This document shows positions 6,111 to 29,540 of a stretch of 64,000 bases of DNA, in pieces; position 1 is the first letter of the stretch, and each line of letters starts with the position of its first letter. Below the pieces are notes generated by a model. It made no database searches and was not told the origin of the DNA. It worked only from the letters and a program-made list of their open reading frames with translations. Where the stretch lies: contig JACPIU010000038.1 of the NCBI GenBank assembly GCA_016187935.1, forward strand, positions 62,001 through 126,000. The letters run 5' to 3'. Both the position numbers and the translations under genes were made by a program. This DNA comes from Bdellovibrio sp. (lineage in GTDB: Bacteria; Bdellovibrionota; Bacteriovoracia; Bacteriovoracales; Bacteriovoracaceae).

Positions 6111-6254
6111 CAACATTCCTTTTCCAAAGAGGGAAGTGTGGCCGTTTCCAATCACACCGTAACGTCTTGATCTCATCGGCCCATTTGTAAACTAAGCGGC
6201 CATTAGAGAAGACAAGATTAGGAATCAATATCATTTCCAAAGTTGACTAATGCT

Positions 6255-8257: not shown

Positions 8258-10765
8258 TTAAACCTTTCTAACCTTGACAACTGTATCCATCCATCTCTGT
8301 TGTCCGCCAATGGGGTCTGTTGAGTTTGGAATGATCCAGTTCGGGTGCTCCCCGTTATCCTTCCACCACTTGAGCTTAAGATCACTATCACTATCATGCG
8401 CGCCTACTTCAATAGGAGATTTGTTATCTGACGCATATCGACCATAATTCCAGTGTCCGCAGTGGTGGGAGATAGAGATGGCCGAAGGATGCACACTATT
8501 GGTTACCTTCGCCTTAGTCTTTATTTTGCCAATGCGCGAACTCACTTCGATATCATCACCATTTTTGATACCGAGTTTAGCAGCGGTCTTTGGGTTAATC
8601 CAGGCCGGATTGGAATGATAATCCTCACTCAGAAGCTTGCAGTTCTGTGACCTTGACTGCGTGTGACTTCTTACCTTGTACGTCGTGAGTATTAACTCAT
8701 CTCCAGACATTTTCTGATGCTCAGGAATAGGATAATAGGATGGCAAAGGATCCCAGTTTTTCTTCTTGAGTGGCTCAGAATAGATGGCCAACTTTCCAGT
8801 TTCCCGATTTATGACATCGTAAGGAAACCCTTTATAGGCCACACCATCGATCATCTGTCCGACATAGTTTTTCTCATTTGACTCTGGGTTCTTCTCATCA
8901 GGTTTAAAGATTACGCCCGACTTTGCATCCACCTTTGTGCCTTCCAAATCCTTTTCAGAAAGTTTCTTCTCTTGTTGATTGTAGGCCGGCTTCTCATTGG
9001 TATCATACCAGGCACCGTGTTTCAGCATGTAATCAAATCCGCCTGCTTCCTTGACACCTTTCGTGTTCTCGCACATCACACGCACCAGCTCCTCATGGTT
9101 TTTAAATGGCATCTGGATACCCAGCATCGGCGCAATCTCATCCACAAAGTCTGTAATAGGCTTTGCTTCGCCAAGCGGTTTTACCACTGGTTGCCTGATG
9201 AAAAACTCGGCAATCTGATCGCCTGAGGCATGCCCCATGGCATCCCATCTTTCAAGATAAGTTGCGGCAGGCAAGATCATATCTGAAAGCGCGGCGGCTT
9301 CACTGTAAGCCACATCATAAGCAATAAAATGAGGGATCACTGCTTCATCCTTCAAGATGGCAATATTTTCCTTAGCATTTCCAGTAACATAAGGAGGGTT
9401 AAAGCAATAAGTCATATACAGTTCAGGCCTGCCATGCTTGCCTTCCTTGATGACTCCGAGGACATCCTGGCATACACCATGGGTCGGATAGGCCACAGCA
9501 CCCTCATAACCATAACCGATCTTTAGCTTCTTCACGTCCTTAGCAACTTGGGTTTTTTTGAAGTTGTCCTTAAATGGGTCACTCCACTTGGGCCCGACAG
9601 ACTGACAGAAGCCGCCGGGAACATTGATGTAGCCGCAAATGGCATTCAGCATAATCACGGCCCTTTCATTGTTTGCTCCCGCATAATGGGCCACAAGTCC
9701 TCTGTAGGAAATGGCCACACCAGGTTTTGCCTTGGCAAAAGCAATGGCCAACTCAGTGATCTTCTTGGCAGGAACTCCACTTTCATCCTCGGCCCATTTT
9801 GGAGTGTACTTTTTTAAGTGATCAGACAGTTGAGCAACCGTCACATTGGTCCATTTCTTGATGAAATTTTCATCATAGAGTTTCTCACTCATGATGACAT
9901 TGGCCATCGCAAGGATGACGGCCGTATCTGTGCCAGGTTTTACAGGTAGCCACTCGGTGGATTTGGCCGCGGTATTTGATAACCGAACATCAAAGGTATA
10001 GAGCTTAGCTCCTCTGGCAATACCCTCAACAAGTCTCTGGGCCACAGGGATGTGGTTGGTGTGGGTTTCCATGACGTTTGAACCGAAGTTCAAGATCAGA
10101 TTGGTGTTCTTAAAATCCCAGTTTTCATAATGCTTGCCCCAGGTAAGCTCTTGGGCAGTCCATTTGCTCCCTTCGCATATTGAGGTGTGCCCTGGTATTG
10201 TTCCTGTGCCATAGGCCGGCAGAAAATAGCCCTTAACGTAAGCGTCAGTCGAATCCTTCATTCTGCCATAATGGAAACAGAAATTTTCCGGATGTCCTTC
10301 GGCCTTCATTCTCTTTAAATGACCTACGAATTCAGTCTTCGCGTCATCCCATGAAATCCTCTTCCACTTTCCGGCCCCTCTCGCACCTACTCTTTTCACA
10401 GGATAAAGCATTCTGTCCGGATCATAGACTTGTCCCATTCCGGCTTGGCCTCTTGCACACAAGACGCCATTGGTTCTGGGAAGCTTTGGGTTGCCTTCGA
10501 TCTTGACAAGTCTTCCATCCTCCACATAGGCCACGATACCATCCCGTGTCACACATTGCCAGCAGGCGGAAGGAACCGCCGTTCGCTCTTTTCTGGTACT
10601 GGGTGAAATGTCTTTAAACCCCCATTGAAGGGAATCCATATCCCCCATAAGGGCCACCGCACCCGGCTTATTTGTTTTCTTACCGGTGCTACACGCAACG
10701 GCAAGGGCGCTCAAGGCGCCAAGTTTTATAAGAAGATCCCTTCTATTCATTGCTTTAATTGTCAT
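8258..10765 (-). CDS. Tat-exported molybdopterin oxidoreductase, PhsA/PsrA/TtrA-like catalytic subunit
   Basis: This is a DMSO-reductase family enzyme, about 835 residues, probably a periplasmic respiratory reductase for a sulfur, arsenic, selenium or similar oxyanion. A twin-arginine signal MNRRDLLIKLGALSALAVAC is visible; the Cys at its end may be a weak lipobox. The expected N-terminal [4Fe-4S] motif reads C68-x2-C71-x3-D75-x27-C103, so the third Cys is replaced by Asp. C197 in GHTSICEGSK is the likely molybdenum ligand, as in PhsA/PsrA-type enzymes. The C-terminal dinucleotide-binding domain has ISISHHCGHWNYGRYA. The ATG at 10765 lies 11 bases after AGGAGG. The ferredoxin subunit is encoded just upstream. 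No NrfD-type membrane anchor is present, so the quinol link is unknown. The substrate cannot be told from sequence. Confidence 0.85.
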   Translation of the reverse strand: MTIKAMNRRDLLIKLGALSALAVACSTGKKTNKPGAVALMGDMDSLQWGFKDISPSTRKERTAVPSACWQCVTRDGIVAYVEDGRLVKIEGNPKLPRTNGVLCARGQAGMGQVYDPDRMLYPVKRVGARGAGKWKRISWDDAKTEFVGHLKRMKAEGHPENFCFHYGRMKDSTDAYVKGYFLPAYGTGTIPGHTSICEGSKWTAQELTWGKHYENWDFKNTNLILNFGSNVMETHTNHIPVAQRLVEGIARGAKLYTFDVRLSNTAAKSTEWLPVKPGTDTAVILAMANVIMSEKLYDENFIKKWTNVTVAQLSDHLKKYTPKWAEDESGVPAKKITELAIAFAKAKPGVAISYRGLVAHYAGANNERAVIMLNAICGYINVPGGFCQSVGPKWSDPFKDNFKKTQVAKDVKKLKIGYGYEGAVAYPTHGVCQDVLGVIKEGKHGRPELYMTYCFNPPYVTGNAKENIAILKDEAVIPHFIAYDVAYSEAAALSDMILPAATYLERWDAMGHASGDQIAEFFIRQPVVKPLGEAKPITDFVDEIAPMLGIQMPFKNHEELVRVMCENTKGVKEAGGFDYMLKHGAWYDTNEKPAYNQQEKKLSEKDLEGTKVDAKSGVIFKPDEKNPESNEKNYVGQMIDGVAYKGFPYDVINRETGKLAIYSEPLKKKNWDPLPSYYPIPEHQKMSGDELILTTYKVRSHTQSRSQNCKLLSEDYHSNPAWINPKTAAKLGIKNGDDIEVSSRIGKIKTKAKVTNSVHPSAISISHHCGHWNYGRYASDNKSPIEVGAHDSDSDLKLKWWKDNGEHPNWIIPNSTDPIGGQQRWMDTVVKVRKV

Positions 10766-10802
10766 ATATTTCAATGCCTCCTATCTCTTAATTTAAGATT
10801 GG

Positions 10803-11792: not shown

Positions 11793-12851
11793 TTAAAACT
11801 TATAGGAGAATGTAATTCTCGCTATTTCATCGGCCTTAGGTTTTGTCGTCGTCACAGTTGATTTCTGAGTACTGTATCCAACGCGCTCGTAGTTAGGAAT
11901 GATATGGAAGTTGTCACTGTCTTTATAGTCAGCTCCCAGAATCATCAAATTATACTTTTTGGCGTTAGAGCTACTGGTTACATAATACAGGTTAGCGGTA
12001 CCAACAGAGGCATCCGTTTTGGCCTCAATCATGTCGTAGCGTGCGAATGCTGACCATGAATCGGTCAACTCTTTAGCAACGTGCGCGGAAGTAAGAGTTC
12101 TTTTGACATCAGCAGTGGCCGTACCACCACTCTGGGTACCCAACTTGTAAGTGGCATACTGAGCACCGACGCGTAGACCGCTCATCTTATAACCAACAAA
12201 GAGTTGATTGACAGTGGCGTCAGTTAAGCCTTTAAATGATTCCTTTTTGTCATAGTACACTTCCACCAAAAGATCTTTAATCGGTGCGACACCCAGAGAA
12301 ACATAGTAGAGCTTATATTTGTCGGTTTCCTGCTGGCTCTTTGAACCGTTTCCATAAAGGACATGGTACATCAACATTTTTTCCATGAAGGAGCCTTTTA
12401 CAGCAACTCCACCGTCAGTGGAACCAACCCATCCCAATAAATCAAGAGGTGTTTTTTCGACATCACGATACCCCCAGCTTGATTCCGCTGCCGATAATGA
12501 AGGCGTTCCCACAATACCAATGGAAGCGGCGTGATCTCCAAATTTCCTAGTGACATTGGCCTGCTTCACAAAAGGAGTCATGTTAGCTCCCGTTGCTGGG
12601 CCTGTTCCTGTCCATGATGCCTGATTGGCTTCTAGCTGAACTTTAGCGCTGTGATCTTCATCTAAGGCACTGTCTAAATTCATGTAAATTCGACGGAACG
12701 ATAAACCATGTTGTCCATTGCTGGTGGCCGTATCAGTGTGCTTGACCCAATAATAATCACCGAAGAACAACGTCGATACTTTCATCTCTGCTGCAAACGC
12801 CGCCAGAGAACCTAAGGCGAATAAGGCCAAAATTAACATCTTCTTAACCAT
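11793..12851 (-). CDS. Outer-membrane porin, copy 1
   Basis: The 352-residue protein has a clear signal peptide (MVKKMLILALFALGSLAAFAA) and then alternating hydrophobic/polar strands typical of a beta-barrel, ending in ARITFSYKF with the terminal Phe used for outer-membrane assembly. I recognise it as a Gram-negative general porin type but not as a named family member. It is closely similar along its length to the protein encoded at 20174-21220, starting with the shared mature end AEMKVSTLFFGDYYW. An AGGAGG ribosome site is present. The upstream FNR-type box and the reductase genes downstream suggest it admits the substrate of the reductase under low oxygen; that is inference. Confidence 0.8.
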   Translation of the reverse strand: MVKKMLILALFALGSLAAFAAEMKVSTLFFGDYYWVKHTDTATSNGQHGLSFRRIYMNLDSALDEDHSAKVQLEANQASWTGTGPATGANMTPFVKQANVTRKFGDHAASIGIVGTPSLSAAESSWGYRDVEKTPLDLLGWVGSTDGGVAVKGSFMEKMLMYHVLYGNGSKSQQETDKYKLYYVSLGVAPIKDLLVEVYYDKKESFKGLTDATVNQLFVGYKMSGLRVGAQYATYKLGTQSGGTATADVKRTLTSAHVAKELTDSWSAFARYDMIEAKTDASVGTANLYYVTSSSNAKKYNLMILGADYKDSDNFHIIPNYERVGYSTQKSTVTTTKPKADEIARITFSYKF

Positions 12852-13256: not shown

Positions 13257-15068
13257 TCAACGAAAGTATCGACCTCTGACAACTCCCCTCACCATAATAT
13301 TGGGTTCGGTGGCAATCTCAATCATCGATCGATGCAAAAAACGGCCTCGACTTCCCCTCTTCAGATATCCAAGCATTCGCTTGGCCTTATTCAGAAGTGT
13401 CTTAGGGTTACGAATGCGTTTGATCCATTTTTCCATTTTTTGGGCCCGCTTTAAGAGACGCTTTCGCTCTCGGGTTTCGGAATTATTCGCCCCGCGCTCA
13501 AGATAACTTTGGCGAGAGTCAGACGAATTCCAAACCATCGGATCGGGTAGTCCGGAAGCACGAGCAAGAGAAATCCACAGATTCTTCTGATCCATGGTCA
13601 ATACCTTTCTTACCGAATCCACCGGAAATTTAACATCCAGATGGATTCGCACATCACCATAATCTTTCTTTTTGGCGACTAAAAGAGGGATCGACAGATG
13701 GGTTCCCATTTCCTGCACTTCTTCCATTATATTTTGCAGCTCTTTTCCTTTGGTTTTACTGTCACCATATTGATAGGTAAAATCGATTAAAAAAGACGGT
13801 ACTTTTTCATCTTCCGTATCCTCAGTCAAAGGAACCAGTACGGCAAATCTGCGGGAAATTGTCTCATCTCCCGAAAAGCCTCCCCAATCCCAAATATTCT
13901 CAACACCAATTTCGGCATATTCAAATTTTCTTCCGTCAGACGTGGTGGTGTTATAGCGAGAGCTGAGAAAGATATTTCTAAATCCGGCGCGAAAGAGCAA
14001 AAGATCAATCGCACCATTCACTTCGAGAGAATTTTCATGCCCCACTTTGACCATCTCTCTTGAGACACTTTTTTGCCCCAAATCGGCCAAATCCTCTGCC
14101 AGGGTGAAATCGCGATGATGAATAAGTTTGAGATAGGCCCGAAGTCCATTGGCATCAGTAAGATCAAATTTATAGATAACACTTTTGTACTGGTTACGGT
14201 TTGCCTTGATATTAAACTTAATAGGGTTATAACCATTTCTTGAATTGATCCCAATGGAAATGGGAACATCGGCCAAATCTTCAAAGAGAATTCCCATGGA
14301 AAGTCCGATCCCCCCCCCTACATCACTGGCATTTTCAACCGCCACCATGGCAAAATTTTCGCCTTCACGCGAGACTGAAAATTTGAGACTTCGTTGTACA
14401 TAGAGTTTGGCCTTAGGCCCGATATCAAAATCCAGAGGAGTTTCCACGCCAAGAAGTTTCAAAATGCCAAGACCGGCACGAACATAAAACCCACCGGTGG
14501 TTTTGGTGGTGATAATTTCGCCATCATTTAATTGCTGAAAAAGGCCATAAGTCAGTGGCATTTTAGTAAATTTGAAAATAGGCGCCAAGAGAGCATCTTT
14601 GTATTCGGCGACATGGCGAATATTAACAAAATTCTTATGTGTAATCGGGCCGGCGGAAATGTAAGGCACCCAATAGTGCAGGAGCAAATTACCCGCCAAC
14701 ACCGCCCCTTGCAGAACGATATCTTGCCCGATATCGACGGTGTCAACCACCAACCAGCCTTTATCTTTGTCAGGAACAATACTGCGGGTGACAACCGGCC
14801 CGAGCATGCCCTTTTGGTAGATAACGCCTGAAATTTTGAGACGATCTTGCTCTTTCACCCATTCTTCATTGGTCTGCCAACTAAGATACTTCTCCCATTT
14901 GGAGACAATTCTTTTATCCAGGTCGGCCAGCATGGCCTCCTGATCCCAATTTAAGGCGGCAATTTCTTCTCTCTCCACTTCTTCTAAATATGGATCGACA
15001 ACAACCTGCGCTTGGATGCTGAGGGAGAAAAATAGGCAAAATGTGAAGATTAAATTTCTCAATATCAT
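13257..15068 (-). CDS. Large secreted protein of unknown family, partner of an Omp85 protein
   Basis: I do not recognise the family. The 603-residue product has a signal peptide (MILRNLIFTFCLFFSLSIQAQ). It then has an acidic, Trp-containing stretch, and long alternating segments such as GGFYVRAGLGILKLLG and GGIGLSMGILFE that read like beta-strands. The C-terminal 110 residues are strongly basic (many RKRLLKRAQK-type runs), which is odd for an exported protein. It overlaps the Omp85 gene by four bases and is the last gene of a three-gene unit, so it is likely an outer-membrane or periplasmic partner of that protein. Confidence 0.7.
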   Translation of the reverse strand: MILRNLIFTFCLFFSLSIQAQVVVDPYLEEVEREEIAALNWDQEAMLADLDKRIVSKWEKYLSWQTNEEWVKEQDRLKISGVIYQKGMLGPVVTRSIVPDKDKGWLVVDTVDIGQDIVLQGAVLAGNLLLHYWVPYISAGPITHKNFVNIRHVAEYKDALLAPIFKFTKMPLTYGLFQQLNDGEIITTKTTGGFYVRAGLGILKLLGVETPLDFDIGPKAKLYVQRSLKFSVSREGENFAMVAVENASDVGGGIGLSMGILFEDLADVPISIGINSRNGYNPIKFNIKANRNQYKSVIYKFDLTDANGLRAYLKLIHHRDFTLAEDLADLGQKSVSREMVKVGHENSLEVNGAIDLLLFRAGFRNIFLSSRYNTTTSDGRKFEYAEIGVENIWDWGGFSGDETISRRFAVLVPLTEDTEDEKVPSFLIDFTYQYGDSKTKGKELQNIMEEVQEMGTHLSIPLLVAKKKDYGDVRIHLDVKFPVDSVRKVLTMDQKNLWISLARASGLPDPMVWNSSDSRQSYLERGANNSETRERKRLLKRAQKMEKWIKRIRNPKTLLNKAKRMLGYLKRGSRGRFLHRSMIEIATEPNIMVRGVVRGRYFR

Positions 15069-17383
15069 AAGTCATACGCCGGGTTATAGTCACCAATCAT
15101 AAAGTAAAATGGCTTCAGATCATCTCCTGGTTGTGACAAGAGCGGAAAGGCCACCCCCGCCTCAATATTGTTTCTCAAGAAAGTATTTTTTAAATTGGCG
15201 CGCAAACCAAAACCGGCGGCGACTCGCACATCAGACAAATCGGCCAAGGTATTTCCAACTGTCGCGGCCTCAACGAAGGCCACCCCTTTTAAATTATTTT
15301 TCCAGATGGGGAAAGAATAATAGAGCCCCCCACTTATGGATAAATTTCCACCGACTAAGCCGCTGGAACTGGAAGCGGGTGCAATACTCTGGCTTCCAAA
15401 TCCCCGAATAGTCCCCATGCCACCGTTGAAGAACTTTTCATAGAAGGGAGCATTTTCCGAGGCATAGCCAAGAGTAATTCGACCGGTCAGCACATGGTGC
15501 GAGCCACCGTTAGTCGTCCCAAGATTCACATTCCCAATAATTTCGGCGTAACTTCGTAAATACACTCCTTGATCAGCGTAACTTGGCATCAGCACCAGAC
15601 GAAGTCTGAATCCACTATAGACATCTCCCGATTCATCAAGTTTTTCGGCCTTATATACCAAGGTACTGACCATTCCCACAATCACATCATTACCGGCGGC
15701 ATCCACCACCTCACTGGCAATGGCGGCGGCGACATCACGAATATTAACAAATTCGATTCTGGTTCCCAATCCTAACTTCAAATTATCCGTGATCATCTTA
15801 CCAATCATCAACTGAGAACCGATCATTCGTCGCGAGTAACCATCGTAATCGCGATCGTCGTAGTGTACGTCTGTGGACATTTGGAAATTTGTTCCGAACA
15901 AATGCGGATCGTTGTACATGACAGAGAGACGAAGCATTTCCTCTGATTTCGTCCCCATAATGGACATGGCCTTTCCGGTATTAAACAAGTTGGGATTATT
16001 ATATGCGACTTCCCCGCCAAAGCCCACGGCGCTATAGCCGCCACCAAATTCGATATAATGGTTAGAAGCCTCGGTCACTTCAATGATAACGGCACCTGTG
16101 GTGTCGGTTTTGGGTTGATAATCCACTCTTACATCATCATAGTAACCCGTTTTCTGCATGGCCGATAAGGTCTTTCTAATTTCCTTGACGTTAACAATTT
16201 GTCCGGGAACAAAAGTGACATCGCGGAGAATGATACTTTCCTTCATTTCCATGTTGCCCACAATTTTGATTTCATCAATAATGTGCTTTTTGCCTTCATC
16301 GATTTTGATCGTCACCACACCATCTTTACTTTGATAGTCCATGAGGACTCTCGCCATGGCATAACCCCTCTCGCCATAGAACTCACGCACTTTTTGCAGC
16401 TCTTGGCGCAAGATCTTGCCACTATAGAAAGTACCGAGTTTGTATTTAACCAGCGCTCGGATGGTTTCTAGCTTGAAATCTTTTGGGCCCTCAACTTTCA
16501 TCTGATGAACTTTAAATTGCTCACCCTCATCAATTTTCAAAGTGAGAACAGCATTGGCCCCCTTCTTTTTATTCTTATGATCTGTGAGTGCGAACTCAGA
16601 TTCAATTTTAACATTGGCAAAACCCTTATCATGATACGCTTCCACCAATAGTTTGATGTCTTCTTTAAGTTGATTAATATCAAAAATTCTTCTCTTAAAG
16701 TCCAGAAGATACCAAAGATTCTTCCGAACCTTCATCATCTTAAGTAAGGCCAATTTTTTGAAATTTTTGTTGCCATTGAAAATCACATCATGCACGAAGG
16801 CCTGACGTGACTTAGGGATAACGTTAAAAATAACGTTGACGGTTTTTTCCGCTTCATCGGCAATATTGATCTGCTGGGTAACTTCAACGTTAGGGTATCC
16901 CATCTTGATATACTCATCTTTCAGCATTTGTTTATCGCTGTTGAGGTTGGTTCCTCGAAGTAAATTACCCTTGATGGTACGGAGTTTTTCGGTGAGTTTG
17001 TTATTCTCAACCGCTCCATCATGAATGATGATCCGGACTGACTCCACCTTTCTCTTGCGCTGAAATTCAAAGACTAAGGTGACGGATTTATCATCTTTAC
17101 CCGGGTCTACCCTAACCGTAACGTCCTCGTATTCGGGAAATCTTTTCATCAGCTCATTGGAGTCTTCCATCAATTTTTCGGCGTTCAGTTCTTTGCCCGC
17201 TTGATGCGCAATGATGAGCGGCATGGTAGGATTCACTAGACGAGTACCTTCATCATCTTCAAAGAAGATGGATTCCACCATGATCTTTTCCTCTGGTGTG
17301 GTATTTGGATCATCCGCCACAACATGAGTGGATAAAGTGATTAACATTGCAATTTGCAAAAAATAGAAAGATAGTATTTTCAT
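15065..17383 (-). CDS. Omp85/BamA-like outer-membrane assembly protein with POTRA repeats
   Basis: The 772-residue protein has a signal peptide, an N-terminal half made of about five POTRA-like repeats, and a C-terminal 16-strand-type barrel. The barrel contains GGMGTIRGFGSQ, the conserved R-G-F motif of the L6 lid loop in Omp85 proteins. The repeats show phrases such as VHDVIFNGNKNFKKLALLKM and KIVGNMEMKESIILRDV. It could be the main BamA, a TamA, or a specialised exporter. The operon partners are unlike a standard bamA context (no skp, lpxD or fabZ), so a dedicated role is plausible. It does not end in the usual Phe. Confidence 0.85.
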   Translation of the reverse strand: MKILSFYFLQIAMLITLSTHVVADDPNTTPEEKIMVESIFFEDDEGTRLVNPTMPLIIAHQAGKELNAEKLMEDSNELMKRFPEYEDVTVRVDPGKDDKSVTLVFEFQRKRKVESVRIIIHDGAVENNKLTEKLRTIKGNLLRGTNLNSDKQMLKDEYIKMGYPNVEVTQQINIADEAEKTVNVIFNVIPKSRQAFVHDVIFNGNKNFKKLALLKMMKVRKNLWYLLDFKRRIFDINQLKEDIKLLVEAYHDKGFANVKIESEFALTDHKNKKKGANAVLTLKIDEGEQFKVHQMKVEGPKDFKLETIRALVKYKLGTFYSGKILRQELQKVREFYGERGYAMARVLMDYQSKDGVVTIKIDEGKKHIIDEIKIVGNMEMKESIILRDVTFVPGQIVNVKEIRKTLSAMQKTGYYDDVRVDYQPKTDTTGAVIIEVTEASNHYIEFGGGYSAVGFGGEVAYNNPNLFNTGKAMSIMGTKSEEMLRLSVMYNDPHLFGTNFQMSTDVHYDDRDYDGYSRRMIGSQLMIGKMITDNLKLGLGTRIEFVNIRDVAAAIASEVVDAAGNDVIVGMVSTLVYKAEKLDESGDVYSGFRLRLVLMPSYADQGVYLRSYAEIIGNVNLGTTNGGSHHVLTGRITLGYASENAPFYEKFFNGGMGTIRGFGSQSIAPASSSSGLVGGNLSISGGLYYSFPIWKNNLKGVAFVEAATVGNTLADLSDVRVAAGFGLRANLKNTFLRNNIEAGVAFPLLSQPGDDLKPFYFMIGDYNPAYDL

Positions 17384-18714
17384 AATTTTCTCTTTATTTT
17401 CTTTTTAAGACGGTTAAGTTCTTTAATTTGTTTTTTAGTCAGTTCGGCGGCCTGTTTGCTTTCGATCTCGGTGATCAGATCATCGGCCGATTTATATTCT
17501 TTATTGAGATAACGGGCCTTGACCAACAGAATGCCCCCCTTAACATCAAGGCCAACACCAGGATAGGTAATCAACATTCGACTTAAGATCTGGATAGCAC
17601 TCTTGACACTGTCCTTACTTCTCATGCGTTGTCCGAACGAAAGATAGAACTGGCCTTTTTTGAACATTTTCTCTGCCGCCTGAACTCGACAGGCCAGCAA
17701 TCTGACAGGTATCAATTTCTGTATCTCTTCGTCCATCCCTTCGGCGGGGAGCAGTTCAAGAATCTCGTAAGCCGAAACGCAGATACGTGTTTGAAGATCA
17801 TCATAATCGGCCTTTTTCGCAAGGTTGGTGAAGGCGAATTCTCCAATATCGATCAGGGGTTTCACAAATGGCCCCTTGGCCTCGATCACGCTCTTTAAAT
17901 ATTTGATGTTCTCTTCCATCTCTTTATCGTCAATATAAAGAGAGATGAATTCGGAAATCAAACGTAATGATTTAATGTCGGCCATGCCGGCCTTTAAACG
18001 TCTCTTGAGTTCATCAAAAGTTTTCTTTACCCACTCCGCCACATTGGGATCAGAATTAGGATTTTCCGACTCTTTTTTCAGAGCATCTTGTGCATCCATT
18101 TCGATTAATGCTTCAGAGATGGCAACTTTGATCTGAGGGACAGTTTCTGTCGCGAACATAAGAATCAAACTCTCTGCCGCCGCAACATAATGCCTTTTAC
18201 CTAAAGTCTTAACGGCCATAAAACGCAAGTTTGGATTTGGGTGGGGAAGAAGAGTTTGAATTCCAGTATTGGCGACTTCATCAGTCTTCTTATACTCCTC
18301 TTCGTTGGGCAACCCAGGTTCATAGTAAAATCCGCCTAAGGCGCTCACGCAGAGAAAGCGATATTTCAAATTATAGTTGGTACTGGTGACAGCTTCGGCA
18401 AAATGCTTAAGCACGATCAGGGACTGCGACACATTCAATAATTGAAAATAAACACTTTGAAGTGACTGTTCAGTCTCAACAACAGAGTAGGCAATAATTT
18501 TTTGGATGCTTGCGAGATCGAGAACTTTAGGTGTCTTCTTGGCATATTCGAGCAGTTCTTTAAGAGCGGTGCTGCGAGCATCGATGGTGCTGGTCTGGTC
18601 AAAGGAGCGACGGATCGTATCTTCCAAAGCTGAATCCTGCGCTCGTGCCACAAAAATATTCGTGGTTAGTAATGATAAAAATAAAACTACGATAATGGTT
18701 AGTTTGTATTTCAC
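17380..18714 (-). CDS. Secreted helical-repeat (HEAT-like) protein, first gene of the Omp85 unit
   Basis: I do not recognise a named family. The 444-residue product has a signal peptide (MKYKLTIIVVLFLSLLTTNIFVARA) and then an all-alpha sequence with HEAT-like repeats. One example is the segment HPNPNLRFMAVKTLGKRHYVAAAESLI, followed by IKVAISEALIEMDAQDAL. The C-terminus has TPR-like spacing and a Lys-rich end. The GTG at 18714 is chosen because ACAGGAG lies eight bases upstream and it gives a clean signal peptide; the upstream in-frame ATG does not. It overlaps the Omp85 gene by four bases and may be a periplasmic scaffold for it, which is inference. Confidence 0.72.
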   Translation of the reverse strand: MKYKLTIIVVLFLSLLTTNIFVARAQDSALEDTIRRSFDQTSTIDARSTALKELLEYAKKTPKVLDLASIQKIIAYSVVETEQSLQSVYFQLLNVSQSLIVLKHFAEAVTSTNYNLKYRFLCVSALGGFYYEPGLPNEEEYKKTDEVANTGIQTLLPHPNPNLRFMAVKTLGKRHYVAAAESLILMFATETVPQIKVAISEALIEMDAQDALKKESENPNSDPNVAEWVKKTFDELKRRLKAGMADIKSLRLISEFISLYIDDKEMEENIKYLKSVIEAKGPFVKPLIDIGEFAFTNLAKKADYDDLQTRICVSAYEILELLPAEGMDEEIQKLIPVRLLACRVQAAEKMFKKGQFYLSFGQRMRSKDSVKSAIQILSRMLITYPGVGLDVKGGILLVKARYLNKEYKSADDLITEIESKQAAELTKKQIKELNRLKKKIKRKL

Positions 18715-19055
18715 TTCCAAGACTCCTGTGACATCAAAAACATTCAAAGAGCAAGCTAGCATAATCGAACTATTACTCGGACTTCAGATGCGCTGGCCTG
18801 TATTTTTTTCACGAAAATGCTTTCCATGGTCAATAACTTGTTGAAATCTGCTTTTTTATTTCTAAATCTACACAAAACAGTGCAGACATCTTGTAATTAA
18901 GGCCTTATAAGATCGCCGCTGCGTAACATTTACATCAGATTTTGGTAACGGTTACGTCACGTTTGAAAGGAATTTTAGTCAGTTTAATAATTGTAAGTAT
19001 CTGTTTTCTGGAGAATATTGAGAGAGCAGGTCATTTAACTTAAAGGAGAATGCGT
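18715..19055. other. Divergent promoter region between the Omp85 unit and an outer-membrane protein gene
   Basis: No gene is supported. The plus-strand side has a good sigma-70 promoter. The minus-strand side has only a weak -10 candidate (TATGCT) in the first 60 bases, and I could not place a convincing -35 for the Omp85 operon. Confidence 0.5.
18963..18991 (+). promoter_or_regulatory. Sigma-70 promoter of the outer-membrane protein gene
   Basis: TTGAAA and AATAAT are separated by exactly 17 bases, predicting a start near 18998 and a leader of about 58 bases ahead of the ATG at 19056. Confidence 0.65.
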
Positions 19056-20081
19056 ATGCAAAAGAAACTGTGGGCCTTGATCATCGGCCTTATGATGATC
19101 GCTCCTGTGGCCATGGCCGCAGAAGAAGACACATCCCTTGGAGACGCTTTTGACGTATCCATGGTGACAAGATGGGATAATTATTTCAAACCAGACGGTA
19201 ATGGGGATTATCGCTTTAACTCTAGACTTAGATCTTCTTCACTTACCTTAACTGCAAACATCTCTAAAAATATTAAGGCCGTATTGCAGATGAAACTCGA
19301 CCAATTTATCATTAAAAATGGCTCTCCTACAGCGCAAACTTTTGACCTCGAAGGATTCATTAAGCAAGCTTATGTGGAAATTGCCAATATCGGCGGACAG
19401 CCAGTCGCCATCATCATCGGTAAACAATTGATACACGCTGACTTGTTCTATGGAAAACCCATGCTCCGTAATCAAGATGATCCATTGCATCCTGTTCGCG
19501 ACATGAATGAGGTTTTCGGATTTGCCGTACGTCTTGATTATGAACTCATCGGCAAAATCGAAGCCGCTGTTTTCGAAAACATGGACGCCAAAGGCGATCT
19601 TGATCTTGGAACTATCGGTTCAGTTTCAGTTCGTTGGTCACGTGAAGTTTATGAGAACTTAACTGTCGGCGCTGGTTACACTCATTTAGGTGATGATGCT
19701 AACCCAGATGCAGACACAGTTGACGTAAGTGCCGTTTATAAATTGGGTGATCATACTTTTTATGCAGAAGGTATGTATTTCCACAATAACCCTAAATATC
19801 CAAATGCTGACTTCACAGTGGCCGCTGGTTACACCTACAAATTCATCAAGTGGGGCGAAGTAACTGCTCAAATGACCTACATACATAACTACTTGTTCCA
19901 AGTCGCTGCTGGTATGAACTTCAAAGTTAACGATAGCTTAACAATCGGGCCGGACATTCGCTGGAACGTGTACGACACCAGTTTAAAAAATGACTGGGAA
20001 TTTGGTGTTAGAACTCAAGTAAAATTGGCAAGCAAGAAACCTAAGAAAAAAGTGACTCTTTTTGGCAAGAAGCCAGAATAG
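19056..20081 (+). CDS. Outer-membrane beta-barrel protein (porin-like), unknown substrate
   Basis: The 341-residue protein has a signal peptide (MQKKLWALIIGLMMIAPVAMAA) and then amphipathic strands throughout, such as TAQMTYIHNYLFQVAAGMNF and FGVRTQVKLA. This points to an outer-membrane barrel or porin. It lacks a terminal Phe and instead ends in a Lys-rich tail (KKPKKKVTLFGKKPE). The ATG at 19056 is preferred over 19050 because AAAGGAG sits seven bases before it. It is a single-gene unit with its own promoter and a strong terminator, which suggests high expression. It is not clearly related to the two paired porins. Confidence 0.72.
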   Translation: MQKKLWALIIGLMMIAPVAMAAEEDTSLGDAFDVSMVTRWDNYFKPDGNGDYRFNSRLRSSSLTLTANISKNIKAVLQMKLDQFIIKNGSPTAQTFDLEGFIKQAYVEIANIGGQPVAIIIGKQLIHADLFYGKPMLRNQDDPLHPVRDMNEVFGFAVRLDYELIGKIEAAVFENMDAKGDLDLGTIGSVSVRWSREVYENLTVGAGYTHLGDDANPDADTVDVSAVYKLGDHTFYAEGMYFHNNPKYPNADFTVAAGYTYKFIKWGEVTAQMTYIHNYLFQVAAGMNFKVNDSLTIGPDIRWNVYDTSLKNDWEFGVRTQVKLASKKPKKKVTLFGKKPE

Positions 20082-20173: not shown

Positions 20174-21220
20174 TTAGAATTTATAAGAGAAAGTGATACG
20201 GACGATCTCGTCGGCCTTTGGCCTTACTGTGGTCACAGTTGATTTTTGTTCACTATAAGTCACACGCTCAATGTTTGGGATAATGTGAAAGTTCTCGCAA
20301 CTTTTGTAATCGGCCCCAAGAATCAGCAAATTATATTCCGTGGCATTGGCGCTCGTGCTGAGATAATAAAGGTTCGCAGTATTCACAGAGGCATCGGTGT
20401 AGGCCTCAACCATGTCGTAACGTGCAAGCGCTGACCATGTTTCAGTGAGCGTTTTAGCAGCATGGGCCGAAATAACTCTTCTCTTGATGTCAACACTGGC
20501 AACACCACCTGACTGAGTTTCAAGTTTGTAAGCAGCGTATTGGACACCAGTACTCAAACCTTCCATCTGATAGGCAATATAAAGCTGGTTTACAGTTGCA
20601 CCGGTCTGACTCTTAAACGAGTCTTTTTTATCAGAATAAAGCTCAATTAGAAGACCTGAGACAGGGGAAAATCCAAGCGAAGCATAAAATTGTTTGTATT
20701 TATCCGTTTCTTGGCCTGTCTTGGCACCGTTGCCGTAGAGAACATGATACATCAACATTTTATCCATGAATGACCCTTTTAAAGAAACACCGCCATCGAC
20801 AGCACCACCCCACCCTAAAAGATCCACAGGAGTTTTCTCGACGTCACGATAAATCCAATAGGTCTCAACGGTACTCCAAGTAGGAGTCCCCACCATACCG
20901 ATAGAAGCGGCATGACTTCCAAACTTTCGAGTGACGTTGGCCTGTTTTATGTAAGGAGAACTGTTTGCGGCAGGCGCGGTTGGTGATGCCTGATTGGCCT
21001 CTAATTGCAGTTTCGCGTCATGTTTTTCATCCAAGGAGCTATCCAAAGTTACATAAATTCGCCTAAGGGCCAGACCATGCAGACCGTTATTGGCGGCCGT
21101 GTCGGTGTGTTTATTCCAGTAGTAATCGCCGAAAAATAAAGTCGATACTTTCATTTCTGCGGAAAAACTTCTGGAAGAGAACAAGACAAGTAAAACTAAA
21201 ACTGATTTTTTATTCAACAT
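20174..21220 (-). CDS. Outer-membrane porin, copy 2
   Basis: This 348-residue protein is a close relative of the porin at 11793-12851: the same mature start (AEMKVSTLFFGDYYW), the same KQANVTRKFG and YRDVEKTP segments and the same terminal RITFSYKF. The signal peptide (MLNKKSVLVLLVLFSSRSFSA) differs, so the copies diverged most there. The ATG at 21220 has AGGAGA upstream; the earlier TTG has none. It lies only about 78 bases behind hypE on the same strand and may be read through from the hydrogenase maturation operon. The shared ancestry with copy 1 is visible; a shared substrate is inferred only. Confidence 0.8.
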   Translation of the reverse strand: MLNKKSVLVLLVLFSSRSFSAEMKVSTLFFGDYYWNKHTDTAANNGLHGLALRRIYVTLDSSLDEKHDAKLQLEANQASPTAPAANSSPYIKQANVTRKFGSHAASIGMVGTPTWSTVETYWIYRDVEKTPVDLLGWGGAVDGGVSLKGSFMDKMLMYHVLYGNGAKTGQETDKYKQFYASLGFSPVSGLLIELYSDKKDSFKSQTGATVNQLYIAYQMEGLSTGVQYAAYKLETQSGGVASVDIKRRVISAHAAKTLTETWSALARYDMVEAYTDASVNTANLYYLSTSANATEYNLLILGADYKSCENFHIIPNIERVTYSEQKSTVTTVRPKADEIVRITFSYKF

Positions 21221-21274
21221 ACAAATCTCCTGCAAATATCGACCTCAAAAATCATTCCAATCTGCCCACCACAC

Positions 21275-21298: not shown

Positions 21299-22312
21299 CT
21301 AACAAATGCGCGGAAGGGAATCACCCTCTTGCCACATCAATAATCGTTCGCCCCCATATAAAGTTTGCAACTCAACCTGGCCTGAGCGAGAAGTGACTTC
21401 TCCAATCACATTGGCCTCTTTTCCCAAAGGATGGTTTCTTAAAAATTGCAACACGGATTGGACCTCTGAGGCGTTACAAAAAATAATCATCTTGCCTTCA
21501 TTGGCCAAGGTCAGCGGATCAAGGCCCAAAATGTCACACAGACCATGAACAGGAGGAGATATCGCAATATTCTCTTCCAACAGATGAAAGCCTATGGAGT
21601 TGTCACGGGACTCATGAATCAGTTCATGCAAACATCCGATGAGGCCGCCACGAGTAGGATCACGCATGCATGTGATACTCGGAAAAACTTCCAATAGAGG
21701 TAAAATCAATGGTTGCAAATTGGCGCAATCACTTCTTAGGTCTCCCTCGAAAGCTAAATCTTTGCGCGCGGCGAGCACAGTGGCACCGTGATTTCCCAAT
21801 GGACCGGTGAGAATGATTTTTTGTCCGGAGTGCAAACGACGAGGATGGGGAGCACTTTTGTTTTCCAATTGACCAAGAGCAGTGACTGAAATAAAAATCT
21901 GGTCGCCTTTATTTTTTTCCACCACCTTAGTGTCACCGGCAACGATATTGACTCCCGCCTCCCGTGCCCCTTCACCCATACTGCTTACAACTTTTTTCAA
22001 AGTGGCAATCTCAAGCCCTTCTTCCAAAATAAAGGAGACAGAGAGATAGAGGGCCCGTGCTCCCATAGCGGTCAAATCATTGAGCGGGCCGCAAATCGCA
22101 AGCTTACCCAAATCTCCCCCTGGAAAAAATAGAGGACGCACAACAAAGGCATCGGTCGCCATGACTTGAGGATAAGTTGAGGGCGCAAGCACCACGCCGT
22201 CCGCACCTTGCTCTAGCAAGGGATTACGAAAGGCCTTAAAAAATACCTCGCGGATAAGCTCATGACTTTTCTTGGCACCACTGCCATGAAAAAGTTCAAT
22301 AGTTTCGTTCAT
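21299..22312 (-). CDS. hypE: Hydrogenase maturation protein HypE
   Basis: HypE receives the carbamoyl group from HypF on its C-terminal Cys and dehydrates it to a thiocyanate, the source of the CN ligands of the [NiFe] site. The 337-residue protein ends in LPRIC with the essential Cys as last residue. The N-terminus has the HGSGAKKSHELI segment and the metal-binding DAFVVRPLFFPGGDLGKLA, followed by CGPLNDL. DPTRGGLI, also conserved, is present. The start overlaps the hypD stop by four bases, and it is the last hyp gene of the unit. Confidence 0.96.
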   Translation of the reverse strand: MNETIELFHGSGAKKSHELIREVFFKAFRNPLLEQGADGVVLAPSTYPQVMATDAFVVRPLFFPGGDLGKLAICGPLNDLTAMGARALYLSVSFILEEGLEIATLKKVVSSMGEGAREAGVNIVAGDTKVVEKNKGDQIFISVTALGQLENKSAPHPRRLHSGQKIILTGPLGNHGATVLAARKDLAFEGDLRSDCANLQPLILPLLEVFPSITCMRDPTRGGLIGCLHELIHESRDNSIGFHLLEENIAISPPVHGLCDILGLDPLTLANEGKMIIFCNASEVQSVLQFLRNHPLGKEANVIGEVTSRSGQVELQTLYGGERLLMWQEGDSLPRIC

Positions 22313-23433
22313 ACAAAATCCTTTTCATTTTTTTGCCCATATCCATAATAAGCAGCACAACTCCCCTCACCCGAAACCATACAGGCCCCCATGGGATTAT
22401 CCGGGCGGCAGACTTTGGCAAACAAGACGCAGTCCCAAGGTCTCTTTTGCCCCTTAAGTATTTTAGAGCAGAGACATTTGGGATGGTCATCTACTTTGCT
22501 TAAACTCAAAGGAAAATGTCTTTCCAAATCATAAACCGCATACTCTTGTGAGAGCATGAGCGCGCTCTTTGGAATCTCCCCCAAACCACGCCAGCTAAAA
22601 TGCGATCGCATAGAAAAAACTTCTTCGACTGCACTCTGTGCCGCCAGGTTGCCATGGTCCCTAACCGAGCGTGGATAGGTATTGGCGACTTGATAAGTTT
22701 TATCATGGCATTGCTGAACTAAATTCTCGAGCCCACGCAAGAGATCGAGAGGAAAGAAGCCTGAAATGGCAACTGGGATTTTAAAATCGGAAGCAACCCT
22801 CTGAAAGGAATGGGGACCGATAATGGTACAAACATGGCCGGGACCAATAATACCATCTAACGAAATGGGATCGCGATCATCGCTCAACAACGCCGACGCT
22901 GCGGGCGGAGTGAGAACATGGTTACAATAAACTAAAATATTTGAAAGCTTGAGCGCCCGCGCCTTTTGAAGAAGCAAAGCACTGGCAGGAGTTGTCGTTT
23001 CAAAGCCTATGGCAAAAAAGACATGGATCTTATCTGTTTCAACTTTGGCATGCTCCAAAATTTCCAAAGGATCGTAGAGCATTCGAATGGCCAGGCCGCG
23101 GCCCCTGGCCTTTAAAAGATTGTCGCGATTCTCGCCAGGAACGCGCATAAGGTCCCCATAGCTATAGAGGATGAGGTGGGGTTCTTGTTCTATTAATCGA
23201 AGAATGGCGGTGATTCTTTCGGCCGGAAGGACACAGACAGGGCAACCGGGGCCGTGAATCAATTCTATATTCCGGGGTAAGAGAGAAGTAAGGCCATAAC
23301 GAAAGAAAGCATGGGTATGGCCACCGCAGAATTCCATGAAACGATAGTGTCTTTTGGGTTCAAGTTGTTCTTGTATTTCGGCCAATTTTCGCATGACAGG
23401 TTCTTTGGCGTGATACTCTGAATCAAATTTCAT
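22309..23433 (-). CDS. hypD: Hydrogenase maturation protein HypD
   Basis: HypD is the iron-sulfur scaffold that, together with HypC, assembles the Fe(CN)2CO unit. The 374-residue sequence has the conserved EFCGGHTHAFFRYGL and HGPGCPVCVLP motifs, FFAIGFETTTPA, and the C-terminal cysteines around CLCSKILKGQKRPWDCVLFA and CMVSGEGSCAAYY that bind the [4Fe-4S] cluster. Length is standard. It overlaps hypC and hypE by four bases on each side. Confidence 0.96.
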   Translation of the reverse strand: MKFDSEYHAKEPVMRKLAEIQEQLEPKRHYRFMEFCGGHTHAFFRYGLTSLLPRNIELIHGPGCPVCVLPAERITAILRLIEQEPHLILYSYGDLMRVPGENRDNLLKARGRGLAIRMLYDPLEILEHAKVETDKIHVFFAIGFETTTPASALLLQKARALKLSNILVYCNHVLTPPAASALLSDDRDPISLDGIIGPGHVCTIIGPHSFQRVASDFKIPVAISGFFPLDLLRGLENLVQQCHDKTYQVANTYPRSVRDHGNLAAQSAVEEVFSMRSHFSWRGLGEIPKSALMLSQEYAVYDLERHFPLSLSKVDDHPKCLCSKILKGQKRPWDCVLFAKVCRPDNPMGACMVSGEGSCAAYYGYGQKNEKDFV

Positions 23434-23639
23434 GCCTTCTCCCAGGTTTTAAGATAGTCTTCCACTTCACTCTCTTCTAAAACTGAGATGGCCAATCCGG
23501 CATGCACCAGAACATATTGGTTTTCTCGCGCCTCAGGGACAAAATCCAATGCAATGGATTTTTGAATTCCCTTGAGATCGATGATGGCCTTGTTATCAGA
23601 GCAGATTTTTATTATTTTTGCCGGGACACACAAGCACAT
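23430..23639 (-). CDS. hypC: Hydrogenase maturation chaperone HypC
   Basis: HypC carries the Fe(CN)2CO unit from HypD to the large subunit precursor. The 69-residue protein begins MCLCVPAKI with the functional Cys at position 2, and has the family end HAGLAISVLEESE. The ATG at 23639 directly after the hypB stop is the true start; a longer in-frame reading would place 49 unrelated residues, overlapping hypB, in front of the essential Cys. The CLC rather than the more usual CLA/CLG at 2-4 is a small deviation. Confidence 0.94.
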   Translation of the reverse strand: MCLCVPAKIIKICSDNKAIIDLKGIQKSIALDFVPEARENQYVLVHAGLAISVLEESEVEDYLKTWEKA

Positions 23640-23640
23640 A

Positions 23641-24312
23641 TTATTTCTCCTTGAGCCAATCAACCCATGCTTCCATTCCCATTCCTGACAAGGCCGAAAG
23701 CATGATGACATGGGCCTTATGATTAATTCTCCTAAGGGATTCCAGCGCCTTCTCACGATTCCAAGAAAGAAAAGGTTCCAGGTCAATCTTTGTGATCAAA
23801 ATTAAATCGACCTGATGAAATAAGGCCGGATATTTAAGAGGCTTGTCTTCACCTTCGGTGATCGAGAGCAAGGCAACTTTATATTGCTCACCCAAATCAA
23901 AGGCCGCGGGACAAACAAGATTGCCCACATTCTCAATCATGAGAAGATCCTCTTCACCGGTAACAAAATTGCCTAATTGCCTGGCAATCATGGCAGCATC
24001 TAGATGACAACCATTCCAGGTATTGATTTGTTGCGCTTTGGCACCGGCGTTTCTTAAGCGGTCAGCATCAATTTCAGTTTGAACATCTCCCACCAAAATG
24101 GACATTTTCCCGAAAGGTTGAATCGCTCGGGTAGTTTTCTCGAGCAGAGTGGTTTTACCTGAACCGGGAGAACTCATCATGTTGATGGTACGAATGCCAT
24201 GGGCCTTAAACCAAAGACGATTTTGTTCCGCCAGGTCACTATTCTTTTTAAAAATATTCCTTTCCATAGACAAAATTTTTGTTTCATGCCGGCCACATTC
24301 ATCACACATCAT
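23641..24312 (-). CDS. hypB: Hydrogenase nickel-incorporation GTPase HypB
   Basis: HypB uses GTP to drive nickel insertion with HypA. The 223-residue protein has the P-loop MSSPGSGKTTL, the VGDVQTEIDADRLRNAG segment and ENVGNLVCPAAFDLGE with the metal-site Cys between subunits. Late in the sequence ALLSITEGEDKPLKYP is typical. The N-terminus has a short CDECG pair but no His-rich nickel-storage stretch, so nickel storage must be elsewhere. It overlaps hypA by four bases. Confidence 0.96.
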   Translation of the reverse strand: MMCDECGRHETKILSMERNIFKKNSDLAEQNRLWFKAHGIRTINMMSSPGSGKTTLLEKTTRAIQPFGKMSILVGDVQTEIDADRLRNAGAKAQQINTWNGCHLDAAMIARQLGNFVTGEEDLLMIENVGNLVCPAAFDLGEQYKVALLSITEGEDKPLKYPALFHQVDLILITKIDLEPFLSWNREKALESLRRINHKAHVIMLSALSGMGMEAWVDWLKEK

Positions 24313-24650
24313 TCGATCTCCATATTCGTGATATTGAATTCTTTACCCTTCCGCACTTCGATTTTTACCTCCTGACATCTTGGGCATAATGGAAATGGGC
24401 CTTCAACTTGTTCTTCCCTTTGACACTGGGGGCAATACACCAAGAGCGGTATTTGATTGATGTGAAGACGACATCGTTCCAAACATGTCCCCAATATTAC
24501 TTCGGGAAAGCAAAACTGCAGCGCCTCGGGAGACACTCCGCTTAGAATGCCTATATCCAAGGTCAAAGCAAGCACTTTTTTTCCCCCCATTTTTTTTAAA
24601 ATATCCGCGGCCTCCTCTACCACACTGACTGCCAAGCTGAATTCATGCAT
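24309..24650 (-). CDS. hypA: Hydrogenase nickel-incorporation protein HypA
   Basis: HypA binds nickel at its N-terminal MHE motif (His2) and zinc at two CxxC pairs, here CPQC and CPRC, and hands nickel to the hydrogenase large subunit with HypB. The 113-residue length is normal. The start overlaps the hypF end by eight bases, consistent with the single hypFABCDE unit. Confidence 0.95.
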   Translation of the reverse strand: MHEFSLAVSVVEEAADILKKMGGKKVLALTLDIGILSGVSPEALQFCFPEVILGTCLERCRLHINQIPLLVYCPQCQREEQVEGPFPLCPRCQEVKIEVRKGKEFNITNMEIE

Positions 24651-27027
24651 GATCCGACTCCATGGCCAAGAGTGTCTGCCCGAGGGAAATACTACCGTCT
24701 CCCACGGAATAGCTTTTTGGTATAAAAATTTCCAAACCGTGGGCAGGAAATATTTGATGAATCAATTGCACCAGGATTTCATTGCAAAAGACCCCTCCCG
24801 ATAAGGTCACTCGATTGAGACCTGTTCTCTCGCGCCCCCAAAGGCATTGCTGAAGCGCCATTTGCACAATGGTAAAATGAAAATCCAGGGCCAAATCCTG
24901 GCACCTGTCATTGTTGTCCTTAGTTTTCGATAATAATTCCTCGATCATTGGTTTCGGATCCAGAATTATTTTTTCTCCCATGATTTCTTTGGTAAAAGAA
25001 AACCCACGAGGTGGACGCGTGGCCTTGGTTGCCAAACTCTCCAAACGGATGGCGGCCTGGGCCTCATAACTTATTTTGTGATTAATCTTGCCACTATGAG
25101 CGCCTAAAATGACCGCCACCAAATCAAAGAGCCTGCCCACCGAAGAGCATTGAGGTGAGTTAATTCCCTTATCGCAATTTGAAAAGAGGCAATCTGTTTG
25201 ATGCAAATCTTCACTCATAAAAATACTCGGGAAATCTCTCCAATCTAACCCCTGTTGCTTTAAATATCCCAGGAGAATTCTTGCCGGGTGCCAAATGGCC
25301 TGCTCACCTCCAGGCAAAATCATCGGACGAAAGCCTCCCACATGCAGCATGATTTTTGTCTTACCCCAAGCAAATAATTCGCCTCCCCACAAAGTACCGT
25401 CGTCACCCAATCCGGTACCGTCATACACGAGATTTAAACATTCCTCCCAGTTAGCAAAATGGGCGGTGGCGCGAGCATGGGCGCGATGATGCGCAATTTC
25501 GATCAGCGTAAGATTTCGCTCTCGTGCCAATTGCGCCCCCCATTGGTGAGAGGCATATCCGCTATGGCGGTCCACCACAATTAAATCGGGAGTTACAGCT
25601 AAATATTGCAAAAAATCTAAAGTATTTTTTTTAAAATTATTCAGCGCTTTGAGATTTTCCAAATCACCTTGGTGGGGAGAGGTCCAAATCGAATGGCCAT
25701 GGCCAATCGAAAAGGTATTTTTGAGATCGGCCCCCAGGGCCAGAATATTTTTGCTTGTAATCTGGGGAATATGAGATTTAAAAGGTGCCATACCTCTGGC
25801 CAGACGCCATGGACGGTTGCCACTCTCAGATTGCCTTATAACCGTATCATCAATAGGCCGTGCGATGGCGCGATCGCAAAATAAAAAATAATCGGCGATT
25901 CCTGCCAGACTCTGAAAAGCTTCTGTTGGTTTATGCGCCAAAGGCTCTCCATGCCGATTACCACTGGTATAAACGATATGAGAAAGTGTTGAATCTGGGC
26001 CACCAAAGAGAAGGGACTGAAAGGGATTCGAAGGCAGCATGACACCCAAGGTTCCGCTGTCGGGGTTGAGATTGTTGTGGGTCACTGGCAAAGGAAGATG
26101 GCAGGGAGCAATAACAATAGGAGCAACCTGAGAATGCAAATTCTCTTGGGACTCGGGGGAAAGTTGCACCCATTTTAAAAGTTCTTGCAGGTTTTTTCCC
26201 ATGACCGCCAGGGGTTGATGAGGGCGTCTTTTGCGCTCACGCAAGGCGCTGATCGCTTCGGCATTATTGGCATCACACACCAGAGCAAATCCACCGATAC
26301 TTTGAAAGGCCAAGAGAGCACCGGCCTGTAATTTATCTGCCACGCTCTGGCCGAGATCTGCATAATTGGCATAGGCCAGCTCCGCTCCTTGGGCGGTGGT
26401 AAACACGGCACGAGGGCCGCAACTTGGGCACACGACGGTCTGGGCATGGAATCTACGATTGGTGTGATCTTCATATTCCGAACGACAAAAAGAGCACAAA
26501 GGATAATCCCTGAAGGTTGTACGTTCACGATCGTAGGGACTTTGCAAAAAGACGGAATAGCGCGGGCCACAGAGGGTACAACTTAAAAAAGGATACTGCC
26601 ACCGCACCCCCGCAGGTGCACGATACTCTTGCCAACATTCAAAACAAGTGGAGAGATCGGTAGGGATCGAGGGAGAGGATGATTCCCCTTCTACACTTGC
26701 AATGATTTCTAATTTCTCCATGCCACAGGGATCGGACCACACAATTTCCTCTTTCTCGAACTGTGCCGCGGCAGGCAGAATAGAGCGGTAGGTATCTAAA
26801 AAGGAAATGAGAGAATGCTTGGGCCCTTCCAGGATTATACGTAATCTGTCACCTCGGTTTTGCAAGGTTCCAAACAGTCCCAAATTTTGAGCATGACAAA
26901 AAAGCTTGGGGCGCAAACCTAATCCTTGGGACAACCCGAAAATATCCAACTGGAAATGACAAATATGATGGAAAGTTTTCTCTAAATTATTATTATTCTG
27001 CGAAAAATGGCGTTTCATGAAATACAT
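24643..27027 (-). CDS. hypF: Carbamoyltransferase HypF
   Basis: HypF makes the carbamoyl group from carbamoyl phosphate and ATP and transfers it to HypE. The acylphosphatase-like N-terminus is divergent (SQGLGLRP in place of VQGVGFRP). It is followed by the paired zinc fingers CFEC/CTLCGPRYS and CSFC/CPSCGPRAVF, the YrdC-like domain and the Kae1-like C-terminal domain with HHRAHARATAH and VYDGTGLGDDGTLWGGE. I placed the start at the ATG at 27027, about 794 residues, because longer readings run into the divergent hoxF start. An ATG three codons later is equally possible, and no strong ribosome site is visible for either. Confidence 0.93.
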   Translation of the reverse strand: MYFMKRHFSQNNNNLEKTFHHICHFQLDIFGLSQGLGLRPKLFCHAQNLGLFGTLQNRGDRLRIILEGPKHSLISFLDTYRSILPAAAQFEKEEIVWSDPCGMEKLEIIASVEGESSSPSIPTDLSTCFECWQEYRAPAGVRWQYPFLSCTLCGPRYSVFLQSPYDRERTTFRDYPLCSFCRSEYEDHTNRRFHAQTVVCPSCGPRAVFTTAQGAELAYANYADLGQSVADKLQAGALLAFQSIGGFALVCDANNAEAISALRERKRRPHQPLAVMGKNLQELLKWVQLSPESQENLHSQVAPIVIAPCHLPLPVTHNNLNPDSGTLGVMLPSNPFQSLLFGGPDSTLSHIVYTSGNRHGEPLAHKPTEAFQSLAGIADYFLFCDRAIARPIDDTVIRQSESGNRPWRLARGMAPFKSHIPQITSKNILALGADLKNTFSIGHGHSIWTSPHQGDLENLKALNNFKKNTLDFLQYLAVTPDLIVVDRHSGYASHQWGAQLARERNLTLIEIAHHRAHARATAHFANWEECLNLVYDGTGLGDDGTLWGGELFAWGKTKIMLHVGGFRPMILPGGEQAIWHPARILLGYLKQQGLDWRDFPSIFMSEDLHQTDCLFSNCDKGINSPQCSSVGRLFDLVAVILGAHSGKINHKISYEAQAAIRLESLATKATRPPRGFSFTKEIMGEKIILDPKPMIEELLSKTKDNNDRCQDLALDFHFTIVQMALQQCLWGRERTGLNRVTLSGGVFCNEILVQLIHQIFPAHGLEIFIPKSYSVGDGSISLGQTLLAMESDHA

Positions 27028-27071
27028 GTTAATCTTATTTAATTCGAATTGTCGTTTTTTTTGGAGCGGTT

Positions 27072-29539: not shown

Positions 29540-29540
29540 T

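Follow-up and report, generated by a model that had tools for sequence, protein, structure and literature searches.

It is still an open question how BamA-type proteins recognize their clients, and one reason is that BamA is essential and deals with all of them. BamA has five POTRA domains and a 16-strand barrel with an RGF motif in loop 6 and a last strand of the form FxFxxG, and it ends in GQLF; this C terminus is located at the lateral seam, the site at which client strands pair. Among the other described systems, TamA-TamB consists of a three-POTRA Omp85 protein and an exported partner encoded in one operon, and FhaC/FhaB two-partner secretion consists of one Omp85 protein with two POTRAs and one large exported protein. 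In the Bacteroidota BAM of F. johnsoniae, the transmembrane outer membrane protein BamG is a subunit, and the BamA that is modified is the main, essential one (PMC12611786). Extra BamA-type proteins beside BamA include Klebsiella BamK, which can replace BamA (PMC13059784), and other paralogs; the available parts of the two sources describe no obligate partner family for any of them (PMC13059784, PMC4104836). The main text of the 2014 superfamily survey does not mention Bdellovibrio (PMC4104836), and a limited literature search found no work pairing Omp85 with Bdellovibrio and paralogs or with Halobacteriovorax.

The locus described here encodes an extra BamA-like protein together with a constant exported partner family, which suggests a small dedicated assembly or export device. 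The host is a member of the Bacteriovoracaceae (Bdellovibrionota) with a genome of 4.40 Mb that is 99% complete (G000). In the window, i.e., the whole 64,000-nucleotide stretch of DNA that was analyzed, three head-to-tail genes on the minus strand run from 18714 or 18762 down to 13257 in the order HEAT, OMP85X, PARTNER:

17380..18714, minus strand: HEAT, exported HEAT-repeat protein with a putative TPR-like C terminus, an optional and probably periplasmic component (Pfam, profile, synteny)
15065..17383, minus strand: OMP85X, BamA-like Omp85 paralog of 772 aa with five POTRAs and a 16-strand barrel (Pfam, NCBIfam, AlphaFold, Foldseek)
16070..17281, minus strand: residues 35-438 of OMP85X, with its five POTRA domains (model secondary structure, Pfam)
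15095..16057, minus strand: residues 443-763 of OMP85X, forming its 16-strand barrel with the loop-6 motif GTIRGF (Pfam, model, motif search)
15068..15094, minus strand: near-invariant C-terminal tail of OMP85X, GDYNPAYDL, residues 764-772 (ortholog alignment)
13257..15068, minus strand: PARTNER, exported protein of 603 aa, apparently a new family (no family match; co-occurrence)
13626..14516, minus strand: residues 185-481 of PARTNER, predicted beta-rich core made up of ten strands, each 13-23 residues long (AlphaFold, Foldseek)
13299..13622, minus strand: residues 483-590 of PARTNER, C-terminal region that is basic and predicted to be helical (model, charge count)
13272..13295, minus strand: residues 592-599 of PARTNER, predicted final short strand, followed by the conserved RGRYF end (model, alignment)

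An earlier note on this DNA had given the coordinates, strand, and reading frames of the three genes correctly. It had also described ATGA coupling on both sides of the Omp85 gene, and both junctions are indeed ATGA overlaps (HEAT/Omp85, ...AAATTATGAAA...; Omp85/603-aa protein, ...GACTTATGATA...). All three proteins have Sec-type signal peptides with no lipobox, as read by eye from the N termini. The HEAT frame could start at ATG 18762 or at GTG 18714, of which the latter is likelier because it gives a proper signal peptide. The G+C content of the unit, 0.41-0.46, is similar to that of its surroundings and so gives no sign of recent import, and repeat and promoter scans around the unit returned nothing worth naming.

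Three Omp85 proteins are encoded in the host genome: BamA, a TamA-like protein, and OMP85X. The canonical bamA gene lies on C6 beside skp, lpxD, fabZ, lpxA, and lpxB (neighbor names read from the protein sequences); the OMP85X gene is a different one and lies outside this skp/lpx cluster. The 958-aa TamA-like protein (C19) adjoins a protein of 1330 aa that carries a TamB domain (PF04357; 1.7e-23), and BamD is encoded elsewhere in the genome. Given these separate bamA, BamD, and tamA-tamB genes, OMP85X is the third Omp85 paralog of the genome. The score of OMP85X against the NCBIfam BamA equivalog model TIGR03303 was 324.5 bits, above the cut-off of 297.15 (canonical BamA, 613.7), so automatic annotation would name both proteins BamA, and this annotation hides a distinct system.

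Several known identities of the unit were considered. The ordinary BAM locus was ruled out by the separate bamA and bamD genes, as the earlier note had supposed. TAM was ruled out as well, since neither PARTNER nor HEAT matched PF04357, the host has its own tamA-tamB, and OMP85X has five POTRAs where TamA has three. Two-partner secretion was ruled out on domains: PARTNER had no match to the TPS hemagglutination domain, and OMP85X lacks the two-POTRA architecture of TpsB proteins. The partners are not known components of these three systems, in agreement with the earlier note. No patatin domain was found by Pfam fused to the POTRA-barrel protein, which removed the patatin-type (PlpD) class. Finally, nothing supported an LptD identity for PARTNER; PF04453, the LptD model of Pfam, had no match in the host genome (99% complete).

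The middle protein is BamA-like, as had been proposed. Pfam matched POTRA at 5.4e-40 in four stretches and Omp85 at 1.5e-29, and an AlphaFold model based on 11 sequences (mean pLDDT 72, pTM 0.38) showed five beta-alpha-alpha-beta-beta units, i.e., POTRAs, followed by 16 strands. The best Foldseek match of this model was BamA (3e-47). POTRAs, a 16-strand barrel, and an RGF motif, the criteria of the Omp85 superfamily, were therefore all found in OMP85X; the loop-6 motif, as RGF or RGY, was present in 13 of the 14 orthologs and was not found in that of G102. The C terminus is unusual. The last strand, PFYFMFG, keeps the FxFxxG form shared with E. coli BamA and the host's own BamA, and it is followed by a tail, (D/E/S)-Y-(D/N)-P-(A/S)-Y-D-L, that is near-invariant in 14/14 orthologs although their overall identity is about 40%. 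All 14 OMP85X proteins end in YDL, compared to F in all 14 BamA proteins from the same genomes. Since the end of BamA sits at the seam where clients pair, the tail is a candidate recognition element.

The distribution of the genes was followed in 129 genomes of the family and, at phylum scale, in 369 genomes. A contig scan using a single protein as the query found nothing, and an alignment-based scan of GTDB genomes brought up ten loci, whose records carry the names Halobacteriovorax, Bacteriovoracaceae, or Halobacteriovoraceae or, less precisely, are labeled as Bdellovibrio sp., Oligoflexia, or Deltaproteobacteria metagenome-assembled genomes. Within the family, some trends stood out. First, the OMP85X profile scores were sharply bimodal, with 14 of the 129 genomes at 785-1244 bits and all others at 186 bits or less, the level of ordinary BamA. 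The absence of OMP85X from the other 115 genomes argues against essentiality in this group. Second, all 14 genomes with OMP85X, which span nine genera, also hold PARTNER, full length in 13 of them and cut by a contig end in the remaining one (G034). The PARTNER profile gave two more partial cases, one in a genome that is 56% complete (G100) and the other in G002. The chance of two such 14/129 sets matching is about 5e-19, a figure that is overstated because the genomes are related. Even so, two genera are of mixed content (2/5 genomes in g3 and 1/7 in g60), and within them the two genes vary together. Third, the genes are adjacent and codirectional in 13 of the 14 genomes, at gaps of -89 to +20 nt, while the flanking genes differ between genera; in G094, they lie 20 kb apart on one contig. 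Finally, the correlation between pairwise distances is 0.876 for OMP85X with PARTNER, compared to 0.68-0.71 for each of them with BamA, and the divergence of both proteins is more than double that of BamA from the same genomes. At phylum scale, no further OMP85X scored above 206 bits and no PARTNER ortholog was found outside the family. In G002, of the same genus, the assembly contains no OMP85X and two C-terminal fragments of PARTNER, 96.5% identical in DNA, at the ends of two contigs (L023 end, L024 start), which is most simply a duplicated unit broken in assembly.

These patterns bear on the reading of OMP85X as a second BamA that is redundant or regulated by stress, in the manner of Klebsiella BamK, with PARTNER as a hitchhiking neighbor. 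The precedent of BamK (PMC13059784) and the BamA name that NCBIfam would assign speak for such a reading. It nevertheless appears very improbable, since OMP85X never occurs without PARTNER in 14 genomes and nine genera, the pair stays together while its flanks change, G094 keeps both genes though apart, and OMP85X is far from its own BamA at about 24% identity. The earlier note had named two outcomes that would count against a dedicated unit, namely a genome without a second bamA, in which the trio was the ordinary BAM locus, and neighbors that vary at random among relatives. With a separate bamA and a pair conserved amid changing flanks, neither was obtained.

The HEAT gene behaves differently. 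The note's description of a HEAT-like secreted protein held, in that a three-sequence profile matched alphaRep/HEAT structures at 4e-24 (Pfam HEAT_2, 4e-4, was below the cut-off). A weak YfiO (BamD) match at the C terminus (E 0.036) hints at TPR-like repeats and is not evidence of BamD orthology. Strong profile matches to HEAT occurred in only 3 of the 129 genomes (G000, G091, and G102), and in each of them the gene immediately precedes that of OMP85X. This ruled out the fixed three-gene unit that had been proposed: HEAT is present in 3 of the 14 pair-bearing genomes, though always at the same position, so the conserved unit is the pair and not the trio. The synteny that the note asked to look for was therefore found for the Omp85 gene and the 603-aa protein gene, which are kept together with differing flanks, but not for HEAT, which is optional. 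The three carriers and G094, the genome with the split pair and no HEAT, form one clade with support of 0.997 in the OMP85X tree and 0.983 in the PARTNER tree, a clade that the BamA tree does not show. This means that HEAT joined one lineage of the unit.

PARTNER had no significant Pfam or NCBIfam match and no match to solved PDB chains by sequence or profile, and by these comparisons it appears to be a new protein family. Its AlphaFold model (10 sequences; mean pLDDT 78, pTM 0.67) places an N-terminal helical and small beta part first, then ten long strands, a helical region, and a last short strand. The top 50 PDB matches in Foldseek were all outer membrane barrels, none below E 1e-3 and at a TM of about 0.2. 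As a control, OMP85X gave TM values near 0.3 even against a family to which it certainly belongs, which makes the E value more telling than TM for PARTNER. Matches to a viral structure library were only weak and included phage maturation proteins. The long meandering strands of the model thus weakly resemble outer membrane barrels, and PARTNER is best called barrel-like, unproven; the suggestion of an accessory barrel in the earlier note finds weak structural support in these matches (E of at least 1e-3). Amphipathicity was strong in some predicted strands and weak in others, and several were not amphipathic. A terminal Phe was present in 11 of 13 complete proteins, but residues at -2 and -4 were mostly polar and the canonical alternating beta-signal was not seen at the C terminus. 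The last 118 residues contain 30 K/R compared to 9 D/E, so the basic C terminus that had been noted is real in this protein, but the corresponding stretch in its relatives ranges from 27/8 to 16/15. Judged by these counts, a pronounced basic C terminus marks some members and is not a family trait.

Distant, mostly larger relatives of PARTNER (open frames of about 640-1130 aa) were found in several families of the phylum (L028, L030, and L031, for instance), and these had no Pfam or NCBIfam family where tested. The host itself has one at L084:7408-10092 (C39) and probably another at L085:5392-7605 (C38). Profile-profile comparison with the larger relatives gave probabilities of 99.2 and 99.6% over about 400 columns. 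Together, these proteins make up a new family of exported proteins that is spread across the phylum Bdellovibrionota. The larger relatives adjoin no Omp85 gene at the loci inspected and extend C-terminally beyond the point where PARTNER stops. The Omp85-linked PARTNER therefore seems to be a derived offshoot of an older family of exported proteins, and the fold itself does not need OMP85X. These longer homologs would also fit a two-partner-type exporter, in which PARTNER is a soluble or surface-released passenger and not an outer membrane protein, as would the modest amphipathicity of many PARTNER strands and a gene order of one Omp85 protein and one large exported protein. We consider this unlikely, given that OMP85X scores as BamA and not as TpsB, with five POTRAs instead of two, and that PARTNER has no TPS domain match.

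The reading that we favor, with confidence that is no better than even, is that OMP85X is a BamA-derived outer membrane insertase or translocase dedicated to PARTNER. All the proteins of the unit would be exported by Sec, and the five POTRAs of OMP85X would receive PARTNER, helped in some species by the HEAT protein as a periplasmic scaffold. The barrel, with its lateral seam marked by the C-terminal tail, would then place PARTNER in or through the outer membrane, where the two proteins probably remain together as a complex. With such a device, it makes sense that the two genes are always paired, that the pair moves freely between loci, and that the HEAT gene is optional. In its favor are the coupled genes, the constant co-occurrence and correlated divergence of the pair, the single clade of HEAT carriers in both trees, the BamA-like architecture of OMP85X, the separate BAM and TAM genes, the barrels that fill the top 50 matches of PARTNER, and the terminal Phe of most PARTNER proteins. 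Against it are the weakness of these barrel matches (best E 1e-3), the predicted strands that are not amphipathic, the lack of a canonical beta-signal in PARTNER, the larger relatives that occur without OMP85X, and the 20-kb separation in G094. Obligate pairing suits a subunit as well as a client, however, and PARTNER may instead belong stably, as an accessory subunit, to an alternative BAM complex that has OMP85X as its core and assembles several client outer membrane proteins. BamG provides a precedent as a transmembrane partner of a BamA-type protein (PMC12611786), although the Omp85 protein here is an extra one and the barrel of PARTNER is predicted; OMP85X retains the five POTRAs and RGF motif of a general insertase, and porin genes adjoin the unit in two genera. 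Yet the pair, whose flanks vary, is not accompanied by any conserved set of client genes, and profile searches matched PARTNER to no PDB chain, which leaves it without a sequence link to BamG. This alternative is thus possible but doubtful.

A more specific form of the dedicated device is put forward tentatively, as a proposal that may well be wrong: a private outer membrane machine in which an Omp85 protein split from BamA serves a single barrel-like client family, recognizes it by the invariant tail at the seam strand, and uses an exchangeable periplasmic HEAT scaffold. If true, this would be a new class of machine and an example from nature of a BAM with one client. Compared to BamA, OMP85X is a third paralog beside a complete bamA locus, with an obligate partner gene, a patchy distribution, and faster divergence. 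A patchy, probably nonessential paralog with a single obligate partner would open the recognition step to deletion and swap experiments in Halobacteriovorax relatives that can be cultured.

Some features of the surroundings were also recorded. Two paralogous porin-like genes (11793-12851 and 20174-21235) bracket the three-gene unit in the same orientation; they share 241 of 352 aligned residues and have no Pfam match. Divergent from HEAT, a porin-like protein (Porin_4) is encoded at 19050-20081, and a homolog of this gene adjoins HEAT also in a genome named Halobacteriovorax marinus (L039, L080); in G091, the porin-like neighbor of HEAT is conserved. A molybdenum cofactor riboswitch (RF01055, 44.7 bits) at 6101-6235 lies upstream of molybdopterin synthesis genes and near a molybdopterin oxidoreductase gene at 8258-10774. 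Finally, genes for a bidirectional-type [NiFe] hydrogenase (NuoE/F-like proteins and the small and large subunits) occupy 21299-31973 together with hyp maturation genes, a cluster that was unexpected to us in a relative of bacterial predators.
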